This document shows positions 689 through 63,185 of a stretch of 63,256 nucleotides of DNA, piece by piece. Within the stretch, counting starts at the first letter, position 1. Each line of letters opens with the position of its first letter. The notes below the pieces were generated by a model. That model had not been told where the DNA came from and made no database searches. It saw only the letters and a list, made by a program, of their open reading frames with translations. Source of the DNA: a virus; the IMG/VR virus record IMGVR_UViG_3300038621_000255, positions 1 through 63,256 of that record; one strand, given 5' to 3'. The translations under genes were made by a program, and so were the position numbers.

Positions 689-1831
689 TTATAATTTATC
701 TGCATCCAAGGCTACGGGCATTATCAGGTGTTCCATATCCCAATCACGATCCATGCCGGATGTAAGCCCTAAAACAGCAGGGCTTGTTGGATCATTTATT
801 TTTAAAACCACCTGGCTCTCTTCCATCTTCTCAAAAGCTTTTAGCGCGTCCTGAAGATATGAGGCATTGAAGGCAATCTTGAGATCGCTGGGGGTATCGT
901 CGGGGGATTGGATCTCTAGGAAGTATTCCCCTTTCCCTCCTTCCCCTTCTGCTGTTACCAGGGCTTTATCGCCTTGGAAGTGAATTTGTACAACCCCATT
1001 CTTCTTCTTCGAGAAGGTGGCGACGAAGTTAATTACAGCCTGGGATTGCTCCACATCTAGTACTACCTCGTGGGTGAAAGAATCGGGAAGTAGCTGCTTG
1101 TATGCTGGGTACTGGCGTTCGTAGGTGGTAGCGAACACCCTGCCACTTTCCCCAGATATTTCCACATTCTGCCCTTCCGAGCGTATCCCAATATTTTCTT
1201 CCTCTTCGTTATTCATTGTTACGTGGAAGGAATATACTAGGCAAGAGGGGAGGATTAACTCTGCCCCCGCTTCCCCTAGCAAGTCCCAATCCCGGAATAT
1301 AGCCAATCGATGTCCATCCGTTGCAGCTGCTTCTACTTTGCTACCTCCTTCAAGATAAATCCCCTGTAATACGTCTTTGATGGGATCTGTTGAGGCGGCA
1401 TATCCGATAGCACCAAACAGAGCCGCCCAGCGGGAAAAATTACCCTCGAAAATGGGGGAATTGTCTACCAAATTGGGGATCTTTGGTAGTTCGTCTGGGT
1501 TCATTCCACGGATCCATGAATCGTTAATCTCTAGAGAGAATTCGTTCTCGCTACCCTGCTCGTGATACAGGTTAATAGCATCGTCGGGGAACGATGCTAT
1601 TGCCCTTGTAAGCAATGCGTGGGGGACTGCCAGATCTAGTTTTTCTTCGATTAGTTCTTTGTCGAGGTGAGTAGAAATCTCTACCCCAAGTTGTAGATTG
1701 TACCCTTTGAGGGTTAAGGAATCCTCTTCTTTTAATAGGTGGACGCACCCTAGGGTTGGGTGTTGGGGTTTATTAGGAATTGAAGGTTTTACCCTCTTCA
1801 ACACCGATTGAAGTACTTTCTTTTCTATCTC
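689..1831 (-). CDS. dnaN: DNA polymerase III beta sliding clamp
   Basis: A 380-aa protein of normal length for DnaN, the ring-shaped clamp that tethers polymerases to DNA. Family-like segments include PHALLTRAIASFP, AATDGHRLAIF near the middle and an ending resembling the usual MPV(R/A)L tail (LIMPVALDADKL). The ATG at 1831 is chosen because AGAGGT lies just upstream. A GTG at 1876 would add 15 residues without a good ribosome binding site. DnaX and HolA are encoded at 44.9-47.1 kb, so clamp and loader are in different transcription units. Clamp genes are uncommon in phages of this size. The identification is firm. Confidence 0.93.
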   Translation of the reverse strand, partial: EIEKKVLQSVLKRVKPSIPNKPQHPTLGCVHLLKEEDSLTLKGYNLQLGVEISTHLDKELIEEKLDLAVPHALLTRAIASFPDDAINLYHEQGSENEFSLEINDSWIRGMNPDELPKIPNLVDNSPIFEGNFSRWAALFGAIGYAASTDPIKDVLQGIYLEGGSKVEAAATDGHRLAIFRDWDLLGEAGAELILPSCLVYSFHVTMNNEEEENIGIRSEGQNVEISGESGRVFATTYERQYPAYKQLLPDSFTHEVVLDVEQSQAVINFVATFSKKKNGVVQIHFQGDKALVTAEGEGGKGEYFLEIQSPDDTPSDLKIAFNASYLQDALKAFEKMEESQVVLKINDPTSPAVLGLTSGMDRDWDMEHLIMPVALDADKL

Positions 1832-1879
1832 CATGGCTTTACCTCTATGGATGTTTTCTATCCATAATTCTACCACGCT

Positions 1880-29230: not shown

Positions 29231-29788
29231 TTAAATTAAGTCGAAGTCCGCTCGCCGGCGGATTATTTTTGTGCGATCGCTATAGTGGTAACGCCACCCC
29301 AACCAGAAAATAAAAGTGCTGCTGCGGTTCAGGAACCGCAGTGCTTTTTCGTTTTCCTTATGGTTTGGCGCGTAGTTTTTATACAACCTTTCCAGCTCCC
29401 GGATTTCTACCCGTGCTTTATCTAAGGTTTTGCCAGGGGTAAAAGGGAACGATACGAAATCGGGAACTCCCGGGAGCTTCGGGAGATACCTTTCATTTAG
29501 TTCTTTTTCCAGGATTTCCACCCCTCGGCTTAAATTCTCTAGATCGTATCCATCGAATTGGATCGCCGCCAGGCAATCATGAACCCCGTAGAGTATTTCT
29601 TCTAGAAAACGAAGCTCCCGTACCGTTAAATGCAAATTCTGACAATCAGCCAGGGCATTTCTAGCCTTGTCTCCTTGCCCCCAGATTAGAGATTTTTCAG
29701 ACCTCTTTAAACAGTTTTGGAAAGAACAATTCCCTGGATCACCCTTTCCAAATTTCGCCTTAGTGTGGATCCTGTATTCCTTTTGCAT
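29231..29788 (-). CDS. Hypothetical protein (185 aa)
   Basis: Mostly helical and charged protein (RELRFLEEILYGVHDCLAAI, then ARVEIRELERLYKNYAP) with a basic C-terminus (TKIIRRRADFDLI). It is downstream of the leftward baseplate block but separated by a short AT-rich gap. A ribosome binding site is present but very close to the ATG. No known domain. Confidence 0.65.
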   Translation of the reverse strand: MQKEYRIHTKAKFGKGDPGNCSFQNCLKRSEKSLIWGQGDKARNALADCQNLHLTVRELRFLEEILYGVHDCLAAIQFDGYDLENLSRGVEILEKELNERYLPKLPGVPDFVSFPFTPGKTLDKARVEIRELERLYKNYAPNHKENEKALRFLNRSSTFIFWLGWRYHYSDRTKIIRRRADFDLI

Positions 29789-41142: not shown

Positions 41143-41629
41143 GGGACTTCGCCTCCTTCGATAAGGATATCATCCCCATTTTAATCAATCCCTCGCCGAT
41201 AAACATATCCCTCGCCACGGCACTTTCCCCACTGTTAAACGGCGTTTCGTAGAAAATTTCCCGAATTCCCGCCGAAATCAATAGTTTCAAACAAGACAAA
41301 CAGGGTTCTAAAGTAACATAGATGCTAGCGCCTGCAGTGGCAATCCCGTGTTTGGCAGCTTGCGCGATCGCATTAGCTTCCGCATGAACCGCACGCGACG
41401 GCAACTCCCTACTACCGGCATCGCAGCTACTCAATCCCGGATAGCAATATCCTTGTGCGATACAGTGCGGCGAACCGCTGGGAGGTCCATTATATCCCGT
41501 TGCCAGTACCTGCCTATCCTTGACAACAACAGCTCCCACAGGAAACGCCAAACAGGTAGAACGGGTAGCCGCCAGTTTCGCTAGCATCAAAAAATATTCA
41601 TCCCAAGTGGGTCGCTGGTAATCAGGCAT
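41099..41629 (-). CDS. dCMP deaminase
   Basis: 176 aa. Zinc-dependent cytidine-type deaminase motifs are HAEANAI and PCLSCLKLL, with AVVVKDRQVLATGYNGPPSG as in dCMP deaminases. It converts dCMP to dUMP, the substrate of thymidylate synthase. The synthase is encoded directly upstream with an 8-base overlap, so the two steps are co-translated. An insertion between the GYNG and HAEA motifs carries extra Cys residues (CYPGLSSCDAG), common in this family as a second zinc site. Confidence 0.93.
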   Translation of the reverse strand: MPDYQRPTWDEYFLMLAKLAATRSTCLAFPVGAVVVKDRQVLATGYNGPPSGSPHCIAQGYCYPGLSSCDAGSRELPSRAVHAEANAIAQAAKHGIATAGASIYVTLEPCLSCLKLLISAGIREIFYETPFNSGESAVARDMFIGEGLIKMGMISLSKEAKSLATTSLELDPTSPP

Positions 41630-43100
41630 CTTGCGTATAAGGAATATCGTTCGTCAAACAGTTGTACGCTTTTTGTAGTTCTATACCCAAATATCCTGCA
41701 TGTTCGGCATGGAGAACGGGAGCATCCGCGCAAATATCTCGCATCAAATTCAATGGTTTTTTCCCGCGATAGGTAGCCACCACTTCGCCGCTACCAGGGG
41801 TTAGCCACTGTACGACAATTTGACCGTGTTCTAGTTCGATTTGGAAATTACCAGAGGGATCGTAAAAATCGCGATTCCGGCGTACAATATGGGCATACTG
41901 GTCTTGAATCAAGCGATCGGCATTATCCCAACAATCATCATAGATATGCGCCGACTGACTAACAGTAATTAACGGACCCAACCGCAAATTGTAGAAACTA
42001 CGTTGGTTTATGCGATCGCGAATATGCTTTTGTAACGCTCGCAATCCCATGGCATTCGCCGGCCAAGCCGCAAACATATCGTTGCTGCGTAGCGTCGCCG
42101 TCAGCGATAGTTCGTTGTCTACCACCCGAACCCAAATATGGTTCAAACAGGGACTTCCGCCTTTCTCGTGGTCGCGAACATCCCACAACGACATCACCGC
42201 ACTAGCAGCATCAATCTCACCAATCAGCTTTTCGATAACCTGTTCCACCTGGTCGCGTCCAAACCAAGAACGCAACCGCTGGCCGTACGTATATTTCACC
42301 CCTTCGCGATAGGGAGCATCGTTTAAAATTTGAGGAATGTATTCCTTGATAAAAGCACGGTCCACAGGCAAATAATTGGGTTCGGGAAAATAAAAATCCT
42401 CCGGTTCGTCGGTAATAACCGCCACCAAATCGATCAGTTCCTGCCACTGACCGTCGTAGCCAGTAGGTCGAATGGTTCCGGTAGTTTTGATGCGGTGGAT
42501 AATTTTGACCCAAGTTTCGGCAATAGTTTTGCCTTCAATGCGATGGCCGTAACGCGAACCAGGCAAAACCGTAGGCGTATTTTCCACCAACGGAAACTCT
42601 TGGGGTTCTCCCCACGGTGGCTGCCAATCTTGACTGGCATAGGATTTGGCCAGTTCGCAGGCCCTGTCTTTATCCGTCACCAACTGCCATTCAATGGCAT
42701 CCCGCAATTGCTGCAACACCGAGGCAGGGATTTCTTCGTCGATATATCCCGGTACTGGAGAACGCACCACCCAACAGGAACGACCGGTGTCGCTAACACC
42801 AGCAGTAAATCCATGCTCAAAAAAATCGCGCAGGCATTCGCAAGCTCTGGCGTTTTTGTCTTCTTTGGTAGCGTCGAGAATAACCAAATAGCGTACGTGG
42901 GGATTGGCAATTAAATTGCGAACCAATAAATTAATTCCCCGGGTCGCACTGTACAGCTGTCCAATTGCGGCGTACTCGTAGGGCTGTAGATGCTTGGCTA
43001 CGGTATCTCGCACCGTCCACCCGGTAACGATGGCAGTTTGCCCTGTACCGCAGATGACTTGATTTGGCTTGTATATGGGCTTGTATTTCCAACCTGGCAT
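41622..43100 (-). CDS. Thymidylate synthase with extra N-terminal domain
   Basis: 492 aa. The C-terminal part holds thymidylate synthase signatures: a catalytic-type GSPCLNHIWVRVV, LRSNDMFAAWPANAMGL, and LGPLITVSQSAHIYDD. The N-terminal ~170 residues (VICGTGQTAIVTGWTVRDTV; LNLLVRNL-like) resemble the MtrA/DUF4346-type domain fused to cyanobacterial thymidylate synthases. It makes dTMP from dUMP. ATG after GGGGGTAACC. Host-type domain structure suggests acquisition from a cyanobacterium (inference). Confidence 0.85.
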   Translation of the reverse strand: MPGWKYKPIYKPNQVICGTGQTAIVTGWTVRDTVAKHLQPYEYAAIGQLYSATRGINLLVRNLIANPHVRYLVILDATKEDKNARACECLRDFFEHGFTAGVSDTGRSCWVVRSPVPGYIDEEIPASVLQQLRDAIEWQLVTDKDRACELAKSYASQDWQPPWGEPQEFPLVENTPTVLPGSRYGHRIEGKTIAETWVKIIHRIKTTGTIRPTGYDGQWQELIDLVAVITDEPEDFYFPEPNYLPVDRAFIKEYIPQILNDAPYREGVKYTYGQRLRSWFGRDQVEQVIEKLIGEIDAASAVMSLWDVRDHEKGGSPCLNHIWVRVVDNELSLTATLRSNDMFAAWPANAMGLRALQKHIRDRINQRSFYNLRLGPLITVSQSAHIYDDCWDNADRLIQDQYAHIVRRNRDFYDPSGNFQIELEHGQIVVQWLTPGSGEVVATYRGKKPLNLMRDICADAPVLHAEHAGYLGIELQKAYNCLTNDIPYTQDA

Positions 43101-44052: not shown

Positions 44053-44217
44053 ATGCACAATCAACGCAAAATAAAGGTTTCCCTAGATGCCCTGGAACAA
44101 ATATCGGAAGTGTATCCGGAATATGTCGCCCAGGTTCTACAGGAAGTGGCAAATATAGATGGGTCTCAAGTAGATGAAATTTTACGGTGGCTAGAATCAG
44201 AATCAGAAGAAAAGTAA
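44053..44217 (+). CDS. Small acidic protein (54 aa)
   Basis: ATG after GACGAGGTAAATAC and a family promoter. The product is helical and acidic (VSLDALEQISEVYPEYVAQV, ending LESESEEK), possibly an adaptor or inhibitor. It is followed by a pseudoknot element and the CAAD-domain gene in the same unit. Unrecognised, but expression signals are strong. Confidence 0.7.
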   Translation: MHNQRKIKVSLDALEQISEVYPEYVAQVLQEVANIDGSQVDEILRWLESESEEK

Positions 44218-44286: not shown

Positions 44287-44895
44287 ATGACTACAACAAC
44301 AGAACAAACCCAAAACGACTTAGAAATCGCCACTGTTTTTATTAACGGTGAATCCAGCCTGGGGTTCGAAGACGATAACCTTGGATCCGATGCTGTACAG
44401 GCTTCGGCTGCCGAGGTCAATGAGCAACCTGATTGGAAACAAGAAAATCTTGAGCCAGGGGATGTTCTAGATCTCTCTGACGGTCTCGTCAGAGTTGACG
44501 ATCAACTCGACTTTGTAAACCCCGACAAGGAAGACGAACAGCAGGAGCAAGGAGAACAACAGGAGCAAACGTCCACAGAACAAGATACCGTTCAGGAAGA
44601 ACAGCAAGAGCGAAACGACAGTCAAGAAAGCAAGGGTATCAAACAAAAACTTGCCAGCATTCCCCACAAACGGCTAAAAGTAGCTATTTTAGCCTCCGCA
44701 GCTGTTGCGGTTTGGGGGACCGTCTACTCCGTCTTTACAACCCCATTTCCTTCCCTCTTGTTCGATGTCGTGGGGATTGGGTCTGCCATATGGTTCATCT
44801 ATCGGTATCTCTCGACTGCAGAGGGTCGGGAAAATTTGGAAAATGACTTACATCGTATTTGGAAACGAGTCTGGGATTGGGTACTTAACTACTAA
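44287..44895 (+). CDS. CAAD/CURT1-like membrane protein
   Basis: 202 aa. Residues 1-125 are acidic and Gln/Glu-rich, probably disordered. Residues ~128-200 have two membrane segments (VAILASAAVAVWGTVYSVF; LLFDVVGIGSAIWFIYRYL) followed by an amphipathic helix (EGRENLENDLHRIWKRV). The pattern P-x-L-F-x-x-V-G-x-G-x-x-x-W-F-x-Y-R-Y-L matches the CAAD domain. That domain is known from cyanobacterial aminoacyl-tRNA synthetases and CURT1 thylakoid-curvature proteins. A phage copy would place the protein in thylakoid or plasma membrane. It is co-transcribed with clamp-loader genes. The domain call is good; the role is unknown. Confidence 0.75.
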   Translation: MTTTTEQTQNDLEIATVFINGESSLGFEDDNLGSDAVQASAAEVNEQPDWKQENLEPGDVLDLSDGLVRVDDQLDFVNPDKEDEQQEQGEQQEQTSTEQDTVQEEQQERNDSQESKGIKQKLASIPHKRLKVAILASAAVAVWGTVYSVFTTPFPSLLFDVVGIGSAIWFIYRYLSTAEGRENLENDLHRIWKRVWDWVLNY

Positions 44896-44948
44896 GTAAG
44901 TACATGGGGGCAGCTACTGCCCCCCATTTTTATTGGAGGCAAGAAAGT

Positions 44949-46238
44949 ATGGCATTGCAGACTAAGTATCGCCCCAAGTTTTTTGCAGAGGTTCGGGGGC
45001 AAAACTTCACAGTCGAAACCCTGCAAAAGTCCCTAAAAGCAGGGAAGTTCGCCCAAGTTTACTTATTTGCAGGGCATCACGGTTGTGGCAAAACAACCAT
45101 AGCCCGGTTGCTGGCAAAGGCGTTGAATTGCCAACAACAGAATAACCACCCTAGTGCAGAACCTTGCGGCACTTGCCCCAGCTGTAAGGCGATAGAGAAA
45201 GATAACAGTTTAGATTATGTGGAGTTCGACGCGGCATCGAATTCAGGGATCGAGCATGTGCGCGAATTAATACAGAACGTCAGTTTATGCGCCGCTCAAT
45301 CTCGCTACAGAGTCTTTGTGGTAGATGAGTGTCACCAATTGAGTAGAGCCGCTCAAGATGTTCTGTTAAAAACGCTGGAAGAGCCTCCAGCCCACGTGGT
45401 TTTTATTTTCACCACAACCGACCCTCAGAGGTTGAACGATACGGTGCGATCGCGCTGCCATGAGTTTCGGTTTCGTTCCCCTACTCATGAGGAGAGTGGC
45501 GACCTTTTGAGGGAAGTGGCAGAGAAAGAGGGAATAGATATCACCGACCCAGCAATCGCCGAGTTGGTTGCGATTTCCAAGGGTAGCGTTCGGGATGCTC
45601 AAAAAAATCTCGACCTCCTAGCTTCTAGAGGGGAACGAATCACCCCCGACCTAGTGCGGGAATTTGGTGGGGTGCTTGGGTTTCGCCAAATTTTGCCTAC
45701 GATCCAGGCGATCCAGAGTGCGAACTCCATCGGTGTGGTAAATAACCTGGATCCCCTATTTGCACAGTACCCTTGCGAAGAGATTTTGAGAAAAGTTTCG
45801 GAAATCTTCCGGGATATTTTTGTGCTAGCCGCGACCGGGGACGAATCCTTGTTGGAGAACCCCGTATCCTCTTTGGTGTGCGATCGCGGCGAGGCTGCTA
45901 AGAAATTGCAGAGACTCAAGGAAGCCTCCACCCAGTTGCACCGGGTGTCGGAACGACAGAAGCAAATCTGGTTGGAAGTTGTTTTGATGGAATTATGCAA
46001 ACTTTCTTCCTCATCCTCATCATCGCCGCCACAACCAGAACCAAAAAGAGAGACACCAAAGGAAGATAATCACGACCAGGTATTGCAGAAACTCAAACCT
46101 AGGCTTCGGCGAACTTTGCAACCCCAGTTGGTGAAAATAGAAGGGGATACCTGTTGGGTGAGATCGCGATCTCCCCTAAAATTGGTTGAGCCGGAATTGA
46201 AGAAGCTGGGTTATCAAATTAAGGAGGTCACGTCATGA
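44949..46238 (+). CDS. dnaX: DNA polymerase III gamma/tau clamp-loader subunit
   Basis: 429 aa from the ATG after TGGAGGCAAGAAAGT. Walker A is GHHGCGKTT (~residue 43). A four-Cys zinc site ends in CGTCPSC. VDECHQLS, KTLEEPP, FTTTDPQRL and the RSRC arginine finger follow. Domain III is present, then a short linker (SSSSSSSPPQPEP) and a ~60-aa tail, much shorter than full tau. Loads the sliding clamp as an AAA+ ATPase. Overlaps holA by 4 bases. The delta-prime subunit is not found here. Confidence 0.95.
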   Translation: MALQTKYRPKFFAEVRGQNFTVETLQKSLKAGKFAQVYLFAGHHGCGKTTIARLLAKALNCQQQNNHPSAEPCGTCPSCKAIEKDNSLDYVEFDAASNSGIEHVRELIQNVSLCAAQSRYRVFVVDECHQLSRAAQDVLLKTLEEPPAHVVFIFTTTDPQRLNDTVRSRCHEFRFRSPTHEESGDLLREVAEKEGIDITDPAIAELVAISKGSVRDAQKNLDLLASRGERITPDLVREFGGVLGFRQILPTIQAIQSANSIGVVNNLDPLFAQYPCEEILRKVSEIFRDIFVLAATGDESLLENPVSSLVCDRGEAAKKLQRLKEASTQLHRVSERQKQIWLEVVLMELCKLSSSSSSSPPQPEPKRETPKEDNHDQVLQKLKPRLRRTLQPQLVKIEGDTCWVRSRSPLKLVEPELKKLGYQIKEVTS

Positions 46239-47113
46239 AAATTCATGTTTTAGTTGGGGACTCAAGGTGGGAAATTAACCACCGAATCGGCGAATTGCTA
46301 TCCGGTTGGGGCGTTTCCCTTCGGGATGTCTCCACCTATGGGAACGATGCAAGTAGGGAACGGGTAGAAAGCGATCTGCGAATTTTACCTCTATTCTCTC
46401 CAAGCAAAGTGGTACTTTGGGAAGGTTGCAAGGTGCAAGATTTGGTAGAGCTTAGGGGTAGTTCGCAGTCGAATTTAGTTGCCGTTTCTACCAGTGCCGA
46501 TCCTCCTCAGTCTGAGGCTTGGGACTGGCTAAAGAAAAACGCCCAGGTAGAGGAATTCTATTTGCCCAAACCTTGGCAACACCAGAAGGTGCAGAAAAAG
46601 ATCCAGGAGATTGCCCAGAAACAACAGATTTTTATTGAAGAAGGGGCCGCCGAGGCTCTAGCAGAAGAGTATGAAATAGATTTCAATAGAATCGCTAAGG
46701 AGATGGAAAAACTTTCCATCTATCCGAAGATAGACGACTCTCTTGTCCGGCTGGCTTCTACTGGTTCCAAAACTTCGGTATTTGATCTAATCGAAGCCCT
46801 AATTGATGGAAGGACTGGAGAAGCGTACAAGACAGTGAATCACCTAGTACAGCAGGGGCAAAGTCCCTTACAGATCCTTGGTTTTTTACTGGCAGAACTT
46901 GATCGCTATCTGCGGGTAAAACTGGATCTTGATATTTCTAGCATGTCGCCGGCAAGACGGCGATTTCTAAAAAAACGACTCAGTGCAGTTTCCCTTGATT
47001 TTCTGAAAACGGCATTAGAGCTAACGATTGATACCCAGAATCTATTGAGTGAAGGAAGCGACCCACTATTGTGTCTCCAAACTTTAGTTCTGGAGCTGTC
47101 TCTGGAGAGATAA
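46235..47113 (+). CDS. holA: DNA polymerase III delta clamp-loader subunit
   Basis: 292 aa. FLIxG-like start (HVLVGDSRWEI), FYLPKPWQHQKVQKKIQEIA, AAEALAEEYEIDFNRIAKEM, EKLSIYP and the C-terminal collar region (LQILGFLLAELDRYLRVK) match HolA. Delta opens the clamp. Coupled to dnaX by ATGA. This operon order (dnaX-holA) is not usual in cyanobacterial chromosomes, where they are unlinked (general knowledge). Confidence 0.88.
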   Translation: MKIHVLVGDSRWEINHRIGELLSGWGVSLRDVSTYGNDASRERVESDLRILPLFSPSKVVLWEGCKVQDLVELRGSSQSNLVAVSTSADPPQSEAWDWLKKNAQVEEFYLPKPWQHQKVQKKIQEIAQKQQIFIEEGAAEALAEEYEIDFNRIAKEMEKLSIYPKIDDSLVRLASTGSKTSVFDLIEALIDGRTGEAYKTVNHLVQQGQSPLQILGFLLAELDRYLRVKLDLDISSMSPARRRFLKKRLSAVSLDFLKTALELTIDTQNLLSEGSDPLLCLQTLVLELSLER

Positions 47114-47186: not shown

Positions 47187-47657
47187 ATGTCTGAGCGCGT
47201 GAAAACCATTATCGAGATGGTCCGCCCTATCATACAAGGGATGGACAAAGAGGAAAAACTGGAACTAAAGAAAAAGTTGGGAATCAATTCCTCCCAAAGC
47301 CAGATCAATCATATAGAAGGGGTGGAAGTCAGTGGGAATTTCCACTTTAACCCAAGGCAAGAAAATGGCAATCCTAGAAAACCTAAAGTGGAGATAGTGA
47401 TAAATAAGGATTTATCAAACAACCACTTAGCTGGTCGTTGCTACAGTTTATTTTATGAAAAGGATTTTGAGTGTAGGTTTCAAAATTTATGCTCCGATTT
47501 AGGTTGCACCGAAGTTAGTTATACTGGGAGGAATTGGTTTTGGCTAGGATATAACCTTCCTCCGTTGGAGCTAGATCCGTTATTCGATAAAATCGAACAT
47601 CATTTCCCTAATACAGATTGGGATCTCGATTTCTCTATTGTGGGGGAGGAAAGGTAA
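47187..47657 (+). CDS. Hypothetical protein (156 aa)
   Basis: ATG at 47187 after CGAGGTTAACT and a family promoter. The N-terminal 35 residues are helical (VKTIIEMVRPIIQGMDKEEK). The middle has a beta-like HIEGVEVSGNFHF. The rest is a compact alpha/beta domain with three Cys and no known motif. Its stop overlaps the start of the next gene by one base. Confidence 0.7.
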   Translation: MSERVKTIIEMVRPIIQGMDKEEKLELKKKLGINSSQSQINHIEGVEVSGNFHFNPRQENGNPRKPKVEIVINKDLSNNHLAGRCYSLFYEKDFECRFQNLCSDLGCTEVSYTGRNWFWLGYNLPPLELDPLFDKIEHHFPNTDWDLDFSIVGEER

Positions 47658-47785
47658 TGAGATGGATTCTGATTTTATCCCTAACGGGAAACATCACCTT
47701 ACTATTCTACTTGCTTTCCAATAGGGAACTGGCAAGTTTTAGTTCCCTATTGGGGGGTGCCCTGCTTTGGTGGGAAATGAAATAA
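47657..47785 (+). CDS. 42-aa membrane peptide
   Basis: Starts at the overlap TAATG, with GGAGGAAAGGTA as ribosome binding site. The sequence has one membrane segment (WILILSLTGNITLLFYLLSN) and a second short hydrophobic end (LLGGALLWWEMK). Possible small holin-like or regulatory peptide. A 13-bp perfect hairpin (47718-47730 with 47741-47753) lies within the coding sequence. No homology is recognised. Confidence 0.6.
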   Translation: MRWILILSLTGNITLLFYLLSNRELASFSSLLGGALLWWEMK

Positions 47786-48560: not shown

Positions 48561-48587
48561 AGCCCCGGTGGGTGGCCGGGGCTTTTT
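48561..48587. terminator. Terminator between convergent genes
   Basis: AGCCCCGG (48561-48568) with CCGGGGCT (48576-48583), then TTTT. Ends the small-gene unit and faces the methylase gene. Confidence 0.85.
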
Positions 48588-49470
48588 AGTAGTTCTGGAC
48601 CAACACTTCGCCAACTTCGCCGCGATCGCTACCCTTAGAATTTATCGACCTGCGTACTTCTAAAGGGTAGATATTGAAATCTTGGTATAGTTCCCTAATC
48701 AAGGGGCAATCCGAGTTTGAGAGTAGGAATTTTGCGCCTTTTCGGTCTATTTCCTGGCAAAACCTGGCAACTTCCCTTTGCATTTCATCGCCCCATTTTT
48801 CGTTGCCTACGTAGGAAGTGTGCGATCCTTCCGTTCGCTTGGGGTAAGGTGGATCTAGGTATACAAAATCCCCACTCGAAACCGATTCTATAATCTCCCT
48901 GAAATCACAGTTCCAGACGGTGCAGTCCTTATGGTTGAGAACTTCAGAGAGAGATAGAATCAAATTTTGATTGTAAAGATTTACCTTTTCGTAGTGTCCC
49001 CATGGGGCATTAAAATTACCTTGCAAATTCTCTCGCCACAACCCATTGAAACAAATACGGTTGAGAAATACCGCACGGACTGCTCTTACAAGTTTGCGGT
49101 CGGAAGGGTGGTTATTGAATAAATCGCGCGTAGAATAGTAAAGGTACTCTTTGAGATCCACCGCGGCATTGTTGTATTTTTTCTCCAATTCTCCCAAGTA
49201 GTGGGCTAATAAATCGGGCTGGTCCCTCACTACCTCTAATACTTCGATTGGTACCCGGTTCGTATCACTCCCCACTCTTTTCCGGTTTGGGAAGTACCTT
49301 GCCATTTCCCAAAATAGTGCCCCACCTCCTAGGAAGGGTTCCCAGTAGGTTTGAAATTCCTTGGGCAAGTGACTCCAAAGGGTGGACAGAATTTGTCTTT
49401 TCCCACCTGCCCACTTCAGAATGGGCTGTGGCTTCGTTTGGTTTCCAATATCTAGCTCTAGTTGCTGCAT
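48586..49470 (-). CDS. dam: DNA adenine methylase (Dam-like)
   Basis: 294 aa. D12-class N6-adenine methyltransferase motifs are PILKWAGGKRQILSTL (motif X/I), PFLGGGALFWEM, FNAPWGHYEK and DPPYPKRTEGSHTSY (motif IV). This class usually methylates GATC, the centre of HIP1 octamers, so the phage DNA may be protected or marked. The N-terminus MQQLELDIG looks like a sliding-clamp-binding peptide. It is transcribed alone, divergent from the RuvC-like gene. Confidence 0.9.
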   Translation of the reverse strand: MQQLELDIGNQTKPQPILKWAGGKRQILSTLWSHLPKEFQTYWEPFLGGGALFWEMARYFPNRKRVGSDTNRVPIEVLEVVRDQPDLLAHYLGELEKKYNNAAVDLKEYLYYSTRDLFNNHPSDRKLVRAVRAVFLNRICFNGLWRENLQGNFNAPWGHYEKVNLYNQNLILSLSEVLNHKDCTVWNCDFREIIESVSSGDFVYLDPPYPKRTEGSHTSYVGNEKWGDEMQREVARFCQEIDRKGAKFLLSNSDCPLIRELYQDFNIYPLEVRRSINSKGSDRGEVGEVLVQNY

Positions 49471-53944: not shown

Positions 53945-54202
53945 ATGGCATTACAACGCACCTTGAAACAAAAGCGCGATCTAGTAATCGGTGGTATACT
54001 CCGAACCTTACGATATGAGGGATTTACAACCAACCAAAAAATACTAGATCGATTAATAAAGAAGATCCAACCAAAGGACTTTTCCAAGGATAAATGGGTT
54101 GGCATAGAGACAAAGAAAAAGGGAAGAAAAAACTACCTGGTAATTAATTTCTTTAAAGGGGATGAAGTAATTAAATCCCAAAAAATGGAGATTCGCAAAT
54201 AA
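53945..54202 (+). CDS. Small basic protein (85 aa)
   Basis: Lys/Arg-rich protein (TLKQKRDLVIGGILRTLRYE, ETKKKGRKNYLVINFFK), probably nucleic-acid-binding. GGAGTACAAG precedes the ATG. Overlaps the next start by one base. Together with the ATPase it suggests a DNA-handling unit. Not recognised. Confidence 0.65.
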   Translation: MALQRTLKQKRDLVIGGILRTLRYEGFTTNQKILDRLIKKIQPKDFSKDKWVGIETKKKGRKNYLVINFFKGDEVIKSQKMEIRK

Positions 54203-54651
54203 TGGCTAGTGGTAAAATACACGAAAGGATTAATCTCTTTGGGTCAATAATAGCAGTAAGTGCCGTTGGTGCGATCGCCAAAGAACCTATCTTAGGATTG
54301 CTAGTGGGTGCCGGAACCCTAGTTGGCACCTACCTCCTTAGTCCCGATCTAGATTGCCGGGGCGCTTTTCACGCAAAATCCTGGTGGCGTTGGCATCGGA
54401 TCGGGTTGGGGTGGTATTGGTCGCTCTACGCCCAAACAATTCCCCACCACCGGCACTGGCTCAGTCACTCGATTGTAATAAGTACAGCGTATCGGGTTCT
54501 ATGGTTGGCGATTCCCCTGGCTGCAATACTATATGCTCTGCCCTTAGAAATTGACCCCAACGCAATCATCACCACCCATTGGAGATTCTTCGCTGCTTTC
54601 TACGGTGGGTTAGAATTATCTACAATCTTGCACTTACTGATGGACCTCTAA
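54202..54651 (+). CDS. DUF2227-like metal-binding membrane protein
   Basis: 149 aa. ASGKIHERINLFGSI, YLLSPDLDCRG, and HHRHWLSHSIVI match a family of cyanobacterial membrane proteins with a His-rich site (DUF2227). Several hydrophobic segments lie between. Function of the family is unknown; a metal-dependent hydrolase similar to YdjM has been proposed. Last gene of the module, closed by the terminator at 54656. Confidence 0.75.
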   Translation: MASGKIHERINLFGSIIAVSAVGAIAKEPILGLLVGAGTLVGTYLLSPDLDCRGAFHAKSWWRWHRIGLGWYWSLYAQTIPHHRHWLSHSIVISTAYRVLWLAIPLAAILYALPLEIDPNAIITTHWRFFAAFYGGLELSTILHLLMDL

Positions 54652-61714: not shown

Positions 61715-62950
61715 ATGCTAGCCCAACAACAAAAACAAGAATTTCCCACCCAGGCGACAGTCGCCAATCCGGTTTTTTACCGTACCTATAGCCGCCGCCA
61801 AGGCAATACCCACCGTGAGACTTGGCAGCAGGTGTGCGATCGCACAATTAACGGTTTGGTAAAACTCGGCAAGCTCAGCGACAAAGAAGCCAACCTTGTT
61901 CGCCAAAAATTAGAAAATTTCCAATCCCTCCCCTCCGGTCGTTGGTTGTGGGTCGGTGGCACCAAGTGGGTAGAGCAGCCGGAAAATTACCCCGGTGCTT
62001 ACAACTGCACTAGCACTAATGTGAGCGACTGGAGAGCCTTTGGGTTAATGATGAACCTGGCGATGCAGGGGTGTGGCACCGGTGCTAACTTAGAACCCCA
62101 GCACATCAATCAACTACCAACCATCTGCAATTACCTCCAAGTGGATGTTATGGGTGAGTTTGGTTCTGTTCCCAAGGAAAACCGGTGCGAGCAGACGCAG
62201 GTAGATCGCACCGGTGCCAATAGTTTCCAATTAACTGTTGGCGATTCAAGGCAAGGTTGGGTAGATGCATACACTTGGATTTTGGAAATATCATCGAATT
62301 CTGACCACGCCGGTTCCTTGGGATTTCCCGGTGAGGTAAGAGTAGAGGTAGATATCAGCCACGTTCGTCCCGCTGGTCAACCCCTGAAAGGATTTGGTGG
62401 CGTTGCCAATCCCACCAAGCTCCCCGGTCTGTTTACCCGCTGCGCAGATATTTTGAATGGTGCCGTAGGTAGGAAGTTGAACGAGCAAGAGTGCTGTTTG
62501 TTGATCGATGAGGCTGCTATTGTAGTTGTGGCAGGAAATATTCGTCGTACAGCGGGCATTCGTCAATTCCCTGCCAACTCCCCTCTGTACAAGATGAACT
62601 TGTGGCAACAAGGGGAAGATGGCAACTGGCGGATCGATCCCCAGCGAGATGCCCTGCGTATGGCGAACCACACCAGAGTTTACCATGGCAAGCCCAGTCG
62701 GGAAGGATGCATCGATGCGGTACGCAAGCAATTTTATTCTGGGGAAGGTGCCATTCAGTATGCACCAGAAGCGATCGCCCGCAGTAACGCGGATATTCTC
62801 GATCGACCAGAAATCAAACGAGAATTCTTAGAAATCTATAATTCTTTGGGCGTGGGAGAAGCCAAAAACTGGTTGCGGACCAACTATCCGCAGATGTCAG
62901 ATCGCGAAATCGAGCATCGCCTGCAGCGATATGGTCTCAACCCTTGCGGT
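61715..62950 (+). CDS. nrdJ: Class II ribonucleotide reductase, exon 1
   Basis: 412 codons ending at GGT of the active-site motif NPCG. NPVFYRTYSRRQGNTHRETW, SLPSGRWLWVGGTKWV, YNCTSTNVSDW (first redox Cys) and MQGCGTGANLEPQ are typical of adenosylcobalamin-dependent monomeric ribonucleotide reductases. The frame seems to stop at 62959, but that stop lies in the intron. Supplies deoxynucleotides together with dCMP deaminase and thymidylate synthase. The gene continues past the window end, and the matching C-terminus is at the window start. Confidence 0.92.
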
Positions 62951-63185
62951 ATCCTTTAATTTTGCCGCCCCTGGCAGCAATGTCAGGTGCCAAAGTGGGT
63001 GAATTGCCGGAACCCCTAACGCAAAAGGCGAGGGCAATCGGCAGCCAAGCTAGCCGGGGCTTCGGTCGGCTAGAAGGTTCAGAGACTAGAGGGTGAGTCC
63101 CAACAATAATCCCTCCACGAGCGCCCACTATCCCGAACGGGGATGAAGAGATAGTCCAATCCTGTAGGAAACTACAGATGTGATG
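62951..63185 (+). ncRNA. Group I intron in nrdJ
   Basis: 235-nt intron. The 5' exon end GCGGT pairs with the internal guide GCCGC (62964-62968), giving the required U-G pair at the splice site. P7 candidates are GACTA (63084-63088) with TAGTC (63152-63156). The intron ends in G (63185). Joining the exons restores NPCG-EIIGSNFFCNLSEVH in frame. No ORF inside, so no homing endonuclease. Self-splicing is expected for this class. Confidence 0.85.

Follow-up and report, generated by a model that had tools for sequence, protein, structure and literature searches.

What could a membrane domain of the CAAD/CURT1 type do for a phage? These domains are described from cyanobacteria and chloroplasts and are linked to thylakoids. 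An earlier note on the DNA studied here (the window, i.e., the whole 63,256 bases of an IMG/VR virus record) had proposed such a domain in the product of one gene (44287..44895, + strand). The gene encodes a protein of 202 residues, with an acidic and Gln-rich arm at the N-terminus and a CAAD membrane domain at the C-terminus. Its open reading frame (ORF) begins with ATG, at a normal distance from an upstream GGAGG Shine-Dalgarno sequence, and in GC content (0.474, vs 0.466 for the phage) and composition it matches the rest of the window. An assembly chimera is unlikely, as the gene sits between the portal and terminase genes and is phage-like in composition.

The window carries genes for a major capsid protein, protease, portal, sheath, tape measure, baseplate and terminase, and is a contractile-tailed phage. 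Its host is a cyanobacterium. This is evident from the HIP1 octamer GCGATCGC, of which there are 34 copies over positions 1-63256 (0.45 expected), and from a thymidylate synthase fused to PterinBD-DUF4346 (41622-43100, -) that shares 71% identity with cyanobacterial chromosomal copies. The thymidylate synthase gene is adjoined by a dCMP deaminase gene, and this HIP1-rich phage also has a D12-class adenine methyltransferase gene (48586-49470, -). Class II (B12-dependent) ribonucleotide reductase domains (61715-62959, +) and a cobalamin adenosyltransferase-like gene (29231-29788, -) form a B12-linked nucleotide supply set. A DUF2227 metal-binding protein (54202-54651, +) is also encoded. The phage's own replication set comprises a sliding clamp, a family-A DNA polymerase, DnaX and HolA; no delta-prime clamp-loader subunit was recognised in the phage.

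The assignment of the protein to the CAAD family was borne out. In the HMM search that the earlier note had called for, residues 132-195 (44680..44871, +), i.e., two hydrophobic helices plus the first part of a C-terminal amphipathic helix, matched Pfam PF14159 (CAAD) with 37.7 bits (E 1.8e-9, model positions 17-83 of 85), exceeding the curated cut-off of 30.7 bits; a second run gave 39.2 bits. A profile built from 130 cellular CAADs, with the window excluded, scored the phage protein at 36.9 bits. The reversed protein gave no score with this profile, and the best of 5,000 shuffles, which were done within segments so that the hydrophobicity of each segment was preserved, reached 12.4 bits. P153, G163 and R181 are present, at positions that are invariant in 130/130 cellular copies, and the W-F-x-Y-R-Y-L motif named in the earlier note was found as WFIYRYL at residues 169-175. 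With the phage CAAD domain (75 residues) as the query, CAAD matches were obtained in 109 of 386 cyanobacterial genomes, the best having an E value of 2.4e-8 and 38% identity; identities among the best matches ranged from 34 to 39%. No other Pfam or NCBIfam family was significant in the 202-residue protein, in which no synthetase fusion was seen, no PHROGs family was matched by it, and solved structures yielded no convincing match. Taken together, the profile score, the reversal and shuffle controls, the invariant residues and the reciprocal matches make homology of the phage protein to cellular CAADs distant and, as judged from sequence, secure.

The first membrane helix, VAILASAAVAVWGTVYSVF (44680..44736, +), has a mean Kyte-Doolittle hydropathy of 1.9 and is preceded by a basic flank, KLASIPHKRLK (residues 121-131, 44647..44679, +), with a net charge of +4. 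The second hydrophobic helix, FPSLLFDVVGIGSAIWFIY (44746..44802, +), has a mean hydropathy of 1.58. The C-terminal amphipathic helix, ENLENDLHRIWKRVWDWV (residues 182-199, 44830..44883, +), has a hydrophobic moment of 0.71 and is the counterpart of the last CURT1 helix. AlphaFold2, run with and without an alignment, gave a pLDDT of 56 and low-confidence helices at both hydrophobic stretches and at the C-terminal helix, and these predicted models add little to the anatomy. When compared feature by feature with CURT1, the phage copy has the two membrane helices, as hydrophobic stretches, and the soluble amphipathic helix at the C-terminus, whereas the amphipathic helix ahead of the first membrane helix is absent, through a 13-residue deletion. 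Whereas nearly all cellular copies are matched from model positions 1-14 onwards, the phage copy is matched only from position 40 of 104. Some CAADs that lie within long synthetase-like ORFs (L024, L028) likewise have no first amphipathic helix, their matches beginning at position 26. Given the loss of this helix, and given that the synthetase CAAD serves as an anchor, the anatomy would suit an anchor better than a membrane bender.

The reading that we prefer, and to which we would give an even chance, is that of a hairpin anchor that is directed to the thylakoid and displays an adaptor arm in the cytosol. The phage would have acquired the CAAD gene from a cyanobacterial host in the distant past. 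The two hydrophobic helices of the truncated domain would form a hairpin in a membrane of the host, probably that of the thylakoid, as CAAD does for ValRS; CAAD alone sends ValRS and GFP to thylakoids and inserts in the E. coli membrane (PMC4893482). By the positive-inside rule, the basic flank and both ends of the protein would be cytoplasmic, with the C-terminal amphipathic helix lying on the membrane surface, and the disordered acidic arm of 120 residues would hold a phage or host protein at the membrane. Candidate cargoes are the phage replication machinery, host CurT and host ATP synthase, of which AtpA and AtpB co-purify with CAAD (PMC4893482). Counting in favour of an anchor are the CAAD score, which lies over the cut-off and far above the shuffles, the invariant residues, the two hydrophobic helices with the +4 flank before the first, the amphipathic last helix and the missing first one.

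The same anatomy could also serve interference with host CurT, the phage copy joining CurT/CURT1 oligomers or competing for FtsZ or ATP synthase, with disturbed thylakoids or blocked division during infection as the outcome. A hairpin that is kept and an N-terminal amphipathic helix that is lost are what would be expected of a dominant-negative copy, and the CurT of Synechocystis interacts with itself and binds FtsZ, its dosage changing division (PMC12462475). However, the long acidic arm would be left unexplained, and the strong divergence of the phage copy could prevent mixed oligomers. We regard this as a real possibility, if an unlikely one. That the phage protein itself bends membranes in the manner of CURT1, curving or reshaping thylakoids, e.g., to provide space for assembly, appears distinctly unlikely. 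It belongs to the right family and has a strong C-terminal amphipathic helix, and oligomerising hairpins together with amphipathic helices are thought to curve membranes (PMC9950537). The N-terminal amphipathic helix is deleted, however, although which CURT1 helix bends the membrane, and whether the N-terminal one is needed, is open in the literature (PMC9950537). The remodelling of thylakoids envisaged in the earlier note is weakened by the missing helix.

The arm spans residues 1-120 (44287..44646, +), carries a net charge of about -27, is Gln-rich from residue 81 and is mostly without confident structure in the prediction. The long acidic tail of the earlier description is a genuine acidic region, located at the N-terminus instead. 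An arm on a CAAD is not new as such, since many cellular CAADs, above all those of presumed picocyanobacteria, carry a long N-terminal extension of low complexity. Three cellular CAADs (L161, L162 and L163) end ORFs of 759-859 residues with long low-complexity N-terminal regions. Within the phage arm, QLDFV (residues 73-77, 44503..44517, +) bears a weak, imperfect likeness to the beta-clamp-binding pentapeptide QL(S/D)LF. Strings of this kind occurred in 0.4% (strict) or 6% (loose) of shuffled arms, for a form that was picked post hoc, and QLDFV may be taken as a lead only to a candidate clamp-binding motif, one that could be due to chance.

The neighbouring genes bear on what the arm might hold. 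At a distance of 54 nt, the CAAD gene is followed by a gene for a dnaX-like clamp-loader gamma/tau subunit of 429 residues (44949..46238, +; ATG with the Shine-Dalgarno sequence GGAGG), the end of which is overlapped by a holA-like gene for the delta subunit (46235..47113, +). DnaX scored 317 bits with TIGR02397 (cut-off 250) and HolA 100 bits with TIGR01128 (cut-off 80). Just upstream of the CAAD gene is an ORF of 54 residues (44053..44217, +) with no family. Downstream of holA, an ORF of 55 residues (47618-47785, +) contains a hydrophobic stretch and may encode another small membrane protein belonging to this cluster. The gap from the CAAD stop to the start of dnaX contains a terminator-like hairpin, GGGGGCAG-CTA-CTGCCCCC then CATTTTTATT (44906..44924, +), with 8 pairs, 7 of them G-C, and a T-rich tail after it. 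The 55-nt stretch around it folds at -18 kcal/mol (z -1.4), and a terminator scan of this region returned twice as many sites as in shuffles, single sites being weak evidence. With the hairpin only about 25 nt from dnaX, transcription of dnaX would depend on read-through or on a promoter within the CAAD gene; a simple promoter scan of this stretch returned no promoter. In the claim that the gene is co-expressed with the clamp-loader genes, the identity of the neighbours as DnaX and HolA is supported by both profiles; co-expression itself is unproven, with a terminator-like hairpin intervening.

Proximity of the CAAD gene to dnaX and holA, in a phage with its own clamp, counts in favour of the anchor reading, in which the replication machinery is one candidate cargo. 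The clamp, of the bacterial (beta) type (689..1876, -), is a possible partner of the CAAD protein. Anchoring of replication, as suggested in the earlier note, would rest on the CAAD-dnaX order in one genome. A close relative by capsid, sought as a check on gene order, was not found, and prophage-like stretches in cyanobacterial assemblies shared structural genes only, with no CAAD or clamp loader in the parts read. The specific proposal that this cyanophage anchors its own replisome (beta clamp, DnaX, HolA) to thylakoids via a captured CAAD hairpin and would thereby synthesise its DNA on the photosynthetic membrane seems to us unlikely. Against the anchor and adaptor reading as a whole we count the weakness of QLDFV, the hairpin before dnaX, the low-confidence models, the long branch of the phage CAAD in the tree described below and the want of a relative showing that the gene order is kept.

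Among the viruses searched, the CAAD gene is rare. Protein searches, peptide patterns, three alignments and a DNA pattern sensitive enough to find 59 of 75 cellular CAAD loci, together with an HMM check, returned no other CAAD from 2.9 million IMG/VR contigs. Searches of INPHARED (50,697 phage records) by tblastn, for which the phage protein and a cellular CAAD served as queries, also returned none. The sensitivity of these viral searches is imperfect: a copy this diverged could be missed, and records very close to the window may be absent from the collections. A literature search likewise returned no description of a phage CAAD. In the CAAD tree, a branch of 3.24 changes per site leads to the phage copy, which falls outside a well-supported 42-row clade with picocyanobacterial-type copies; its placement is otherwise unresolved. 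Judged by the length of this branch and the position outside the clade, the phage CAAD would be an old or fast-evolving acquisition rather than recent host DNA. The long branch also allows for a changed function of the domain. It is quite improbable that the gene is a mere passenger of host origin that hardly affects infection: it comes from a single phage genome, with no conservation to reveal selection, but the ORF is intact, has a Shine-Dalgarno sequence and resembles the phage in composition, and its universally conserved residues have survived a long divergence. A lysis function, in which the two hydrophobic helices of this 202-residue phage protein would make it a small two-helix holin or pinholin, is very improbable in view of its clear CAAD sequence homology, a 120-residue acidic arm that is unusual for holins, and replication genes as neighbours, with no endolysin recognised beside the CAAD gene.

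A viral CAAD would, within the scope of these searches, make this phage the first in which a thylakoid-targeting domain has been co-opted. As a thylakoid-targeted anchor, it would offer a possible handle on the site of phage DNA replication in a cell that is full of photosynthetic membranes. As a naturally occurring form that lacks the first amphipathic helix, it is also relevant to where in CURT1 the membrane-bending part lies (PMC9950537).

Among known systems, the bacteriophage phi29 proteins p1 and p16.7 are a precedent for membrane anchors of phage replication, p16.7 binding terminal protein and ssDNA (PMC4974454). The principle that we propose they share with the phage CAAD is that of a phage membrane protein organising replication, with no sequence relation claimed. 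Long-armed CAADs of picocyanobacteria and some filamentous species resemble the phage protein in having a C-terminal CAAD after a low-complexity, often acidic extension; unlike it, they have extensions that are mostly Pro/Ala/Glu-rich and dissimilar in sequence, and nearly all retain the first helix. CurT/CURT1 and the phage protein have in common two hydrophobic helices, a soluble amphipathic helix at the C-terminus, a disordered N-terminal stretch and, on the predicted phage topology, cytoplasmic ends. The phage copy differs in the deletion of the N-terminal amphipathic helix, in an identity of at most about 39%, and in an arm longer than that of the usual CurT/CURT1 copies of 136-180 residues. 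In comparison with CAAD synthetases, the phage protein is not joined to an enzyme and is far shorter (202 vs about 1,000 residues), and its CAAD is C-terminal, whereas in the synthetases the domain is inserted in the enzyme. What the synthetase CAAD, e.g., that of Anabaena ValRS, and the phage domain have in common is a homologous hydrophobic hairpin, in which the invariant P, G and R are the same, and the joining of a membrane anchor to a non-membrane part; some synthetase copies, too, are without the first amphipathic helix.
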